Below, piece by piece: positions 10,794 to 14,739 of a stretch of DNA of 64,000 nucleotides (within the stretch, counting starts at the first letter, position 1; each line of letters opens with the position of its first letter). The notes under the pieces are model-generated. The model saw only the letters and a program-made list of their open reading frames with translations. It made no database searches and was not told the origin of the DNA. The stretch spans positions 1 through 64,000 of the forward strand of contig JAJYHT010000009.1 in NCBI GenBank assembly GCA_021784595.1. Direction: 5' to 3'. The stretch is from Bacillota bacterium. Lineage in GTDB: Bacteria > Bacillota > Sulfobacillia > Sulfobacillales > Sulfobacillaceae. The position numbers and the translations under genes are program-made.

Positions 10794-10869
10794 TGGTGGA
10801 GACGAGGGGAGTCGAACCCCTGACCTTCGACTTGCGATGCCGACGCTCTCCCAACTGAGCTACGTCCCC
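10794..10869 (-). tRNA. tRNA-Ala (anticodon CGC)
   Basis: A 76-nt cloverleaf with CCA encoded. Acceptor GGGGACG pairs with CGTCTCC and contains the G3-U70 pair that defines alanine tRNA. The D arm is GCTC-AGTTGGGA-GAGC, the anticodon stem TCGGC/GTCGA with loop ATCGCAA gives anticodon CGC (codon GCG), and the T arm carries GGTTCGACTCC. The discriminator base is A. It has its own consensus promoter and terminator. tRNA genes are frequent integration sites, and the gene-poor accessory block lies on its 3' side. Confidence 0.97.
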
Positions 10870-11054: not shown

Positions 11055-11101
11055 AGTGGAGTAAAGTGGAGAGTAGTGGAGATAAAATGGAGGTGAGTGG
11101 G
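11055..11101 (+). promoter_or_regulatory. MraZ-box-like direct repeats before mraZ
   Basis: Five copies of A(G/A)TGG(A/G) stand at 11055, 11065, 11075, 11086 and 11096, with a period of 10 or 11 bases, one helical turn. MraZ is known to bind series of short G-rich direct repeats spaced one turn apart upstream of its own gene (TGGGN in Escherichia coli, AAAGTG-type in mycoplasmas). The array probably is the autoregulatory operator. The last two copies flank the mraZ ribosome site GGAGGTG, so binding here could only act on DNA, not on start selection. Confidence 0.65.
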
Positions 11102-11105
11102 AAAA

Positions 11106-11537
11106 ATGATGATGGGAGAATACGTTCATGCATTGGACGATAAAGGTCGCATCATCCTTCCTGCTCGCCTGCGTGACGATCTTCAAGACCATTTTGTGAT
11201 GACCAAAGGTCTGGATGGGTGTTTGTTTTTTTACCCGATGGACGAATGGAACAAGATGGAGGAACGGTTAAGAGCCCTGCCGATGACAAATGCTAATGCT
11301 CGAGCCTTCGCTCGTTTGTTTTTGGCTGGCGCTCAAGATGTTGAAGTGGATCGCCAGTTCCGTATTACCGTTCCACCGCGTCTGCGTGAATATGCAGGCG
11401 TGCAAAAAGATGTGGTGTTGGTGGGAGTCAGCAATCGAGTTGAATTGTGGGCGCAGGAGCGGTGGACTGAGTACCAAACATCTGCGCAATCAGGTTACGA
11501 AGATGTTGCCGAAAAAATGGCTGATTTTGGCTTTTGA
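11106..11537 (+). CDS. mraZ: MraZ, transcriptional regulator of the division cluster
   Basis: A 143-residue protein with the two tandem SpoVT-AbrB-like MraZ domains; the first begins M-M-G-E-Y-V-H-A-L-D-D-K-G-R. The start ATG 11106 lies 10 bases after GGAGGTG, and this gives the family's usual N-terminus; a GTG at 11097 would be too close to the ribosome site. MraZ binds repeats upstream of its gene and adjusts expression of the division and wall cluster. It opens the long operon, and the rsmH frame begins within 15 bases of its stop. Confidence 0.96.
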   Translation: MMMGEYVHALDDKGRIILPARLRDDLQDHFVMTKGLDGCLFFYPMDEWNKMEERLRALPMTNANARAFARLFLAGAQDVEVDRQFRITVPPRLREYAGVQKDVVLVGVSNRVELWAQERWTEYQTSAQSGYEDVAEKMADFGF

Positions 11538-11551
11538 TGGGAGGCGTAGCT

Positions 11552-13006
11552 GTGGTGACCTTTACCCACGTTAGCGTAATGCCGGAGGAGGTACTGTCAT
11601 ATTGGGTGACCGATCCCGAAGGTTTATATGTAGATGCTACGTTGGGCGCAGGGGGCCACAGCCATTTGCTGTTATCTCGATATCCAACCATTAGTCTGGT
11701 AGCGATTGATCAAGATCCGGCTGCCTTGTCCGCAGCTCGTGAGCGGTTGGCTCCTTTTGGTCCGCACGTTGCCATACGCCATGGCAATTTTAGGAATCTA
11801 AAAGACTTGCTGACAGTCCAGGAAGTAGGTTCGGTCCACGGCGTGCTGTTTGATTTGGGAGTGTCATCGCCACAATTGGACCGCGAGGATAGAGGTTTCG
11901 GATATCAAAATCCCGATGCGCCATTAGACATGCGGATGGATCCGGATAGTTCGGTAACCGCTTTTCGCTTAGTTAATATGAAACCAAAAGAGGACATAAC
12001 CGACGCCTTGCGAAAATGGGGAGAAGAGCGCTGGGCCTCGCGGATTGCGGAATTTATTGTGCGCGCACGGCAAAAAGAACCGATCCGAACCACGGGGCAG
12101 CTGGTGGAATTAATTAAGGCGGCAATTCCAGCTTCTGCCCGACGCACGGGAGGCCATCCTGCGCGACGTACATTTCAAGCCCTGCGAATTTGGGTTAATG
12201 ACGAACTCGAGGCCCTCAGCGAAGGACTTTTGCAAGCCCTTGAGGCCTTAGCTCCCAAGGGCCACGTCGTAGTCATTTCATTTCATTCACTCGAGGACCG
12301 CATTGTAAAGCACACATTCAAAGAGTGGCAGAGTCGTGAACTGGGTACTGTGTTGACGCGTCGGCCACTTTTGCCGTCAGAAGAGGAAATCGAAAGAAAC
12401 CCGCGGGCACATTCTGCTAAAATGCGTGTTTTTGCCAAAGGTGAGGGTCAGGCAGAGGATGTCAGGACATTTACGGGAACAATGCCGACAGTTTTCATGG
12501 AATATCAACAAATTTCGGGTTATCGGTCAAGGAGGTTGCAACTAGTGATCAATCAACAAGAAAACGAATATGCCATCTATTATGGAGAGGGCAATTTGGC
12601 GCGCACCTGGGAAAAGAAACTGCGTCCCAAGATTGCTCCCAAGCCCCGGCGACGTCTCAATCGCATGGCGAAAACCGTGCTATGGATTTCCGGGGTATGG
12701 ATGGGAGGATTGGCAGCGACCCTTTTAGCAGTGCATGTTTTAGTTATGGGCTATCAGGTTGATGCGCTGCAAAACCAATATACGATGTTGCAACGGCAGA
12801 ATCAAGTTTTGGCAGTTTCGGTTACCGAGATGAGTTCTCCTCGATCCTTGGCCATCGATAGTCAAAAATTTCATCTCGCCCTTAAAGTTCCCGCAGTCAG
12901 TGCCGGAATTCACAGCGCAGTAAGATCTCGGGTTGCTTATCAGCCGTGGTATAACCAGGTGTCTCAGTGGATTTTGGCGGTTCGTGGAGCCCTGACTTCA
13001 AAATGA
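11552..13006 (+). CDS. rsmH: RsmH (16S rRNA m4C1402 methyltransferase), frame continuous with FtsL
   Basis: Residues 1 to about 300 are a complete RsmH/MraW: V-D-A-T-L-G-A-G-G-H-S for SAM binding, D-L-G-V-S-S-P-Q-L-D, S-F-H-S-L-E-D-R-I-V-K, and the end motif N-P-R-A-H-S-A-K-M-R-V. RsmH methylates N4 of C1402 in the ribosomal P site. The frame does not stop there. After about 33 more residues it runs into an FtsL-like domain and stops only at 13006, giving 484 codons instead of about 310. The start GTG 11552 lies 7 bases after GGGAGG (a second GTG follows). See ftsL at 12545 for the internal start. Confidence 0.9.
   Translation: MVTFTHVSVMPEEVLSYWVTDPEGLYVDATLGAGGHSHLLLSRYPTISLVAIDQDPAALSAARERLAPFGPHVAIRHGNFRNLKDLLTVQEVGSVHGVLFDLGVSSPQLDREDRGFGYQNPDAPLDMRMDPDSSVTAFRLVNMKPKEDITDALRKWGEERWASRIAEFIVRARQKEPIRTTGQLVELIKAAIPASARRTGGHPARRTFQALRIWVNDELEALSEGLLQALEALAPKGHVVVISFHSLEDRIVKHTFKEWQSRELGTVLTRRPLLPSEEEIERNPRAHSAKMRVFAKGEGQAEDVRTFTGTMPTVFMEYQQISGYRSRRLQLVINQQENEYAIYYGEGNLARTWEKKLRPKIAPKPRRRLNRMAKTVLWISGVWMGGLAATLLAVHVLVMGYQVDALQNQYTMLQRQNQVLAVSVTEMSSPRSLAIDSQKFHLALKVPAVSAGIHSAVRSRVAYQPWYNQVSQWILAVRGALTSK
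12545..13006 (+). CDS. ftsL: FtsL-like division protein, probable internal start within the rsmH frame
   Basis: GTG 12545 is preceded by a near-perfect Shine-Dalgarno AAGGAGGT (12529-12536) at 8 bases, so a separate 153-residue protein is likely made. It has a basic cytoplasmic tail, one membrane segment (about residues 45-65), then a short coiled coil (Q-N-Q-Y-T-M-L-Q-R-Q-N) and an S-P-R-S-L-A-I-D-S motif like the S-P-E-R-I-E region of FtsL. FtsL belongs to the FtsL/DivIC/FtsQ part of the divisome that activates FtsW and its PBP. The position between rsmH and the PBP gene is the standard place for ftsL. The stop overlaps the next start (ATGA). Confidence 0.8.
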   Translation: MINQQENEYAIYYGEGNLARTWEKKLRPKIAPKPRRRLNRMAKTVLWISGVWMGGLAATLLAVHVLVMGYQVDALQNQYTMLQRQNQVLAVSVTEMSSPRSLAIDSQKFHLALKVPAVSAGIHSAVRSRVAYQPWYNQVSQWILAVRGALTSK

Positions 13007-14739
13007 AGAACCATTCGATACGGGTTTCACGTCACCGTGCTCTGTGGACCCTAATTTACACCGCTCTATTTTCGGTATTGCTAGTGGTCCGATTAGCGAT
13101 GATCCAGGTGGCGGATGCCAATCACCTTCATGCGTACGCATCCAGCATCCATGTGCATCGGATTGCCTTGCCAGCTAGTAGAGGAAAAATTTTGGATCGC
13201 AATGGGCTGGTACTGGCGATGGATGCCCCGACCTATCAGGTAGTGGCGATACCGAAATATCTCACCTCCCAAAAGCAAGTGGCCGCTACCGCAGAGTCCT
13301 TGTCACACTATTTGCCGTTTACCCAAAAAGTGCTGGCCAGTGTTTTAGGGGATAAGTCATGGTATGCCTTGATTGCCCGCTCGGTTACACCGACGGTAGC
13401 TCACCAAATTTCTGCTTTAAACCTCGTGGGAATCTCGGTGATACCCTCTACTGGACGCGAGTATCCTAATGGAACCTTGGCCTCGCAAGTATTGGGCATG
13501 GTGGGGTCGCACGACCAGGGGCTAGCGGGTGTTGAGTATGAGTACAACAAAATTTTGTCCGGGCATTCGGGAGAGTGGGTGGTGCGCACCGACGCCACAG
13601 GCAATCCTTTGCCACAGTGGCAAAAGTCCTATACGGCGCCCGTCCCTGGAAACAACGTCCAATTGACAATTGATGCCAATATTGAAACCGTAGCGCAAAA
13701 ATGGTTGAAGTGGGGGGTCAAGCGCGCCCACGCCTTAAATGGTACCGTGATTGTATTGAATCCTCATACAGGGTCAGTGATTGCCTTGGCCAACTGGCCA
13801 AATTTCAACCCTAACAACTATTACCACGCTACGCCACTAGAGATGACAGACTATGCGGTGGAGGACCCGGTTCCCCCCGGATCAATTTTTAAACCCGTGA
13901 CGGCCACGGCCGGTTTGACACTTGGGCTTTTTACCCCAAACAGCATGTTTGACACCCGAGGCTATAAGATTGTGGATGGAGTGCGCATTGATGACTGGAA
14001 TCCTAACGGGTGGGGATGGATCACGCTAACCCGTGGACTCGAAGTATCGTCAGACCAGGTCTTTATGGATGTGGCACTGAAAGTTGGAGCCCAGAGTTTA
14101 TATCACTTCATAAAGTTGTTCGGATTTAATCACCCGAGTGGAGTGGGCCTGCCTGGGGATTCCCCAGGTGTATGGCTGCCTGAAAGTCAAGTCAACGCCG
14201 TCGATCTTGCGACCATCGGTTTTGGCCAAGGATTTGCAGCCACTCCTATGCAAGTGATAGCTGCGGATGCGGCGGTGGCTAATAACGGGGTCATGATGCA
14301 ACCACACATTTTAAAGGCGGTGATTTCTCCTAACGGTTCTATCGTCCAATCGGTTAAGCCTAAGGTGGAGTCCGTCACCACTTCTGCAGCCGTCGCGCAA
14401 GAACTCCAGCACATGATGACGTTGGAAGCCACCCAAGGGACCGGTGTTCCTGCCCAAGTGCCCGGCTATATCATTGCGGGAAAGACGGGAACCGCCCAAA
14501 AAATCGTTAATGGACGCACCTCCAATAGTTTGTTTGTTTCTTCTTATATGGGAATGGGGCCAATGCCGAATCCACGGTTTATTATGCTGGTGATGATCAA
14601 CCGACCGATTGGGAGCTTATTTTATGGCGACCAAGTGGCGGCGCCCGTATGGAAGCACATAGCGGAGTTCATGTTCCAATATTGGGGCATCAAACCCTAT
14701 GCAGGTCCAGACAATGGATCCAAGCCGCTGGTTCCCTAG
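13003..14739 (+). CDS. ftsI: Class B penicillin-binding protein (FtsI/PbpB type)
   Basis: 578 residues: N-terminal membrane anchor (about 10-30), PBP dimerisation region, then the transpeptidase domain with S294-I-F-K297 and K494-T-G-T. The middle motif is S349-S-D351 rather than the usual S-x-N. There is no PASTA domain. It cross-links septal peptidoglycan in partnership with FtsW. ATG 13003 overlaps the ftsL stop; the Shine-Dalgarno is poor, so translation is likely coupled. The motif positions are identical to those of the next gene, which points to an old tandem duplication, as with pbpB and spoVD in Bacillus. Confidence 0.92.
   Translation: MKNHSIRVSRHRALWTLIYTALFSVLLVVRLAMIQVADANHLHAYASSIHVHRIALPASRGKILDRNGLVLAMDAPTYQVVAIPKYLTSQKQVAATAESLSHYLPFTQKVLASVLGDKSWYALIARSVTPTVAHQISALNLVGISVIPSTGREYPNGTLASQVLGMVGSHDQGLAGVEYEYNKILSGHSGEWVVRTDATGNPLPQWQKSYTAPVPGNNVQLTIDANIETVAQKWLKWGVKRAHALNGTVIVLNPHTGSVIALANWPNFNPNNYYHATPLEMTDYAVEDPVPPGSIFKPVTATAGLTLGLFTPNSMFDTRGYKIVDGVRIDDWNPNGWGWITLTRGLEVSSDQVFMDVALKVGAQSLYHFIKLFGFNHPSGVGLPGDSPGVWLPESQVNAVDLATIGFGQGFAATPMQVIAADAAVANNGVMMQPHILKAVISPNGSIVQSVKPKVESVTTSAAVAQELQHMMTLEATQGTGVPAQVPGYIIAGKTGTAQKIVNGRTSNSLFVSSYMGMGPMPNPRFIMLVMINRPIGSLFYGDQVAAPVWKHIAEFMFQYWGIKPYAGPDNGSKPLVP

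Follow-up and report, generated by a model that had tools for sequence, protein, structure and literature searches.

We analysed positions 1–64,000 of the forward strand of contig JAJYHT010000009.1 (GCA_021784595.1, Sulfobacillaceae); this whole stretch of DNA is called the window hereafter. The locus studied is a dcw cluster on the plus strand. Its first gene, mraZ (11097–11537; TIGR00242), is followed by rsmH, an ftsL-like gene and a gene for a pbpB/spoVD-like penicillin-binding protein (PBP; 13003–14739; PF00905, PF03717). A tRNA gene (10797–10869, minus strand; Rfam RF00005, 65.7 bits) is located 5' of mraZ on the opposite strand.

The original prediction held that rsmH and ftsL form a single open frame from 11552 to 13006, and reading the sequence confirmed this. 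The frame runs without a stop from 11552 to the TGA at 13004–13006 and comprises 493 aa from stop to stop. Possible starts are TTG 11534 (490 aa) and GTG 11552 (484 aa). Within the frame, AAGGAGGT (12529–12536) is spaced 8 nt from GTG 12545–12547, which is in phase with 11552 (993 nt apart); the predicted internal ribosome site 8 nt 5' of an in-frame GTG was therefore found at its place in the position check. The TAG at 12543–12545, said to overlap this GTG in another frame, does so in frame +1. The product sizes given for the joint frame and for free FtsL (about 54 and 17 kDa) agree with the masses computed from the sequence (54.4 and 17.3 kDa).

The RsmH part (16S rRNA m4C1402 methyltransferase; 11552–12442) is intact up to the point where the proteins of relatives stop. 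It matched PF01795 at aa 4–296 with an E-value of 5.5e-106 and 355 bits (cut-off 27), covering nearly the whole profile, and TIGR00006 with 321 bits (cut-off 154). By profile, it is a full-length methyltransferase above the cut-off. The assignment of the FtsL part (12545–13006; 153 aa with its own GTG start) is of a different kind. Its match to the NCBIfam profile FtsL_Actino NF053549 was below the cut-off (31.5 bits against 55, E-value of 1.2e-7), and a Pfam profile search of this part gave no match. It is a small bitopic protein with basic residues ahead of a membrane segment (approximately 12695–12751), and it lies between rsmH and the pbpB/spoVD-like PBP gene, where its homologues in relatives, which have their own start, are also found. 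As the assignment rests on position and family relatives, we call it FtsL-like. At its 3' end, the ftsL stop overlaps the likely pbpB/spoVD start (ATG 13003) in an ATGA at 13003–13006. GTG 12967, the mechanically listed pbpB/spoVD start, is probably not the real one.

The comparison of rsmH-ftsL junctions in relatives, which the original prediction had proposed as a check, was run with the window genome (3.79 Mb) and its family and order. Three genus mates had rsmH-ftsL matches: Sulfobacillus benefaciens AMDSBA4 (G004, locus L032) and two metagenome assemblies (G003, locus L031, and G001, locus L033). The fourth genus mate (G002), an incomplete genome, gave no rsmH-ftsL match. The best segments of the genus mates were 68–75% identical to the window. 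A scan of genome contigs for another genome of this species returned only these genus mates and more distant genomes.

The window aligned to the three genus mates without gaps across the end of RsmH, and the TAG, TAA and TAG of the mates correspond to GAG at 12443–12445. One base change is thus enough to explain the difference. The ancestral position of the rsmH stop is identifiable and altered in the window, and the rest of the frame is collinear, as in a stop-loss run-on. Because an out-of-frame TGA (12442–12444) is displaced by one base from the ancestral stop, deletion of one base there would give a similar picture.

Twenty-nine family and order loci were read directly. In these, RsmH ends 4–14 residues past an (R/H)SAK(L/M)R motif, followed by TAG, TAA or TGA, a non-coding spacer and an ftsL that has a start of its own, usually preceded by a Shine-Dalgarno sequence. 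The rsmH stop lies approximately 100 nt 5' of the ftsL start, and a stretch of 50–167 nt separates it from a conserved motif inside FtsL. This distance was 144, 143 and 145 nt in the genus mates; it does not vary in steps of three, which is what non-coding spacer DNA would show. Ahead of ftsL, AGGAGGTTG is invariant in four of four genus members, whose alignment also shows the Shine-Dalgarno sequence to be conserved. The genus-wide invariance of AGGAGGTTG argues for independent initiation of FtsL. Stops keep rsmH and ftsL separate in all relatives examined, and the family search found the joint frame in the window genome only. At one locus of another genus (L070, G013), rsmH and ftsL are in one frame with a single TAA between them. 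This means that the run-on configuration is easily reached and that a single change would be enough elsewhere, too.

We checked how unusual the open spacer is. The former intergenic stretch (12446–12544) comprises 33 codons without a stop in the rsmH frame, and its translation, the linker of a fusion if there is one, contains TFTGTMPTVFMEYQQISGYR. A stop-free run of this length was found in 33% of dinucleotide shuffles and in 34–40% of all stretches of the same length in the window. Statistically, the open spacer is unremarkable. When 96 comparisons were made with two genus mates, a large C-terminal extension was seen in rsmH alone (187 aa; the next largest was 20 aa). The missing rsmH stop, not the open spacer, is the unusual part.

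A CGACAAAATTC element is conserved, with a fixed location, in the rsmH-ftsL spacers of the family (L002–L030). Of 30 spacers, 26 contain CGACA (4.0 expected), most often as CGACAAA, which was found in 17 of 30 (0.4 expected). The element lies 37–55 nt past the rsmH stop, and its distance to the ribosome site of ftsL further on is typically about 46 nt. In several genomes, another CGACA follows 39–40 nt downstream. Elsewhere, only two occurrences of CGACAAA were counted in the 1500 nt 5' of 29 rsmH genes, and none in the ~880 nt of the bodies of these genes. The window copy of the CGACA(AAATTC) element, CCGACA at 12485–12490, lies within the run-on frame. The reverse complement of the element, TTTTGTCG, resembles the Spo0A box core TGTCGAA, whose own reverse complement is TTCGACA (PMC3485338), and Spo0A is encoded in the window genome. 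The full TTCGACA, in which the final AA of the core is kept, was present in only 7 of 30 spacers. By its sequence, the element is possibly a Spo0A-type site, and we regard it as a candidate. Through an element at a fixed position 5' of ftsL, this lineage may couple the expression of division genes to a regulator, for example Spo0A. In the window spacer, neither a plus-strand promoter-like site nor an Rfam match to a known RNA family was found. Two loci of the g3 genus (L003 and L011; G006 and G015) have a longer RsmH tail (14 aa past the motif) and a shorter spacer; the CGACA element is absent there, and the Shine-Dalgarno sequence is a different one, ACAGGAGGA.

We think it probable, as far as the sequence can tell, that rsmH and ftsL are ordinary adjacent dcw genes that were merged into one frame by the loss of the rsmH stop through a one-base change, and that the merger is tolerated rather than selected. 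The most direct reading is that a TAG-type stop became GAG by one base. By chance, the spacer of about 100 nt, non-coding in relatives, would then contain no stop and share the phase of ftsL, and ribosomes that translate rsmH would continue across it. Their product would be a 54-kDa RsmH-linker-FtsL protein, anchored in the membrane by the FtsL segment and with its RsmH part facing the cytoplasm. Free FtsL of 17 kDa would still be started from the conserved ribosome site and GTG of ftsL, and both the run-on protein and free FtsL would be produced. Tolerance of such a run-on is plausible because deletion of mraW/rsmH causes only minor growth defects in Escherichia coli and Bacillus subtilis (PMC13317604) and because an N-terminal GFP-FtsL localizes at division sites of B. 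subtilis (PMC2844427). Overall, an accidental run-on or an error in the sequence is the likeliest explanation of the joint frame, rather than a new kind of protein.

A sequence error is the stronger of the alternatives to a real stop loss, although we consider it unlikely. The organism would then have a normal rsmH stop at approximately 12443, and the assembly would have a wrong or missing base there. The joint frame is a feature of a single genome, one wrong base suffices, and, as the out-of-frame TGA at 12442–12444 is one base away, a single missing base there would also explain the joint frame. To set against this, the alignment around the site is gap-free, and neither a frameshift nor an internal stop interrupts the coding parts of the 69 conserved intervals compared on the contig. 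This frame check covered the whole contig of 157 kb (96 comparisons, 69 distinct intervals, against G003 and G004). The apparent internal stops in it were located near the starts of open reading frames, and those inspected lay 5' of the real start codons. The absence of frameshifts from the 69 intervals speaks for a good assembly and makes an error less likely. The original prediction had named a sequence error as an alternative, and this stands for a single-base change at the stop codon. It does not stand for its specific form, a one-base indel in the 3' part of rsmH that masks a normal TAGTG stop/start overlap: apart from the TAG at 12543–12545 touching GTG 12545, such an indel is very improbable, since relatives do not use a corresponding TAG to end rsmH (their stop lies far 5' of the ftsL start, and the overlap is absent from every relative read directly), the window is gap-free against the genus mates up to the ancestral stop, and the FAKG read in frame 0 is also present in a genus mate, directly before its stop.

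The anatomy described in the original prediction was correct in that there is a run-on frame with a strong internal start for free FtsL. The purpose assigned to it, a tether of RsmH to the divisome, found no support. A functional fusion, selected to tie rRNA methylation to the divisome while free FtsL is made from the internal start, would be consistent with the open frame, the complete RsmH and the basic residues before the FtsL membrane segment, and the topology would allow a cytoplasmic RsmH. However, the joint frame is confined to the window genome. Neither fusion nor linker is kept in the related genomes examined, where the linker region always corresponds to non-coding spacer; in relatives, this region carries conserved, regulatory-looking DNA. 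Furthermore, an RsmH survey of 249 genomes of the phylum showed no similar fusion among the ~150 matches listed. The open frames among these matches were mostly ~306–372 aa, and the longest (413 aa) was due to an upstream extension, as were five further long frames from the search of the family and class. The long RsmH frames of G057, G026, G054, G042, G051 and G229 were considered as fusions and rejected, as they are upstream extensions with a normal C-terminus. No RsmH-FtsL fusion was found in the literature search, either. We therefore regard a selected fusion as improbable. It is just as doubtful that a genuine RsmH-FtsL fusion was recently fixed and, alongside free FtsL, places the rRNA methyltransferase at the division site.

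As it stands, the run-on matters little: it is found in one genome, and automatic annotation would name it a fusion protein. A real and fixed loss of the stop would provide a natural test of two things: whether a membrane-tethered RsmH works or is dispensable, and whether FtsL tolerates a large cytoplasmic partner.

Compared with the standard dcw order of Bacillota, mraZ-rsmH(mraW)-ftsL-pbpB/spoVD, the gene order, orientation and content of the window are the same, and ftsL has its own ribosome site. The difference is that the rsmH stop codon is missing and that rsmH and ftsL share one frame. With respect to known run-ons by stop-codon loss between operon neighbours, only the gene pair differs (the rsmH-ftsL case was not found in the other genomes and papers searched). 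The one-base change of the stop, the in-phase and stop-free spacer and the retained downstream start are the same.
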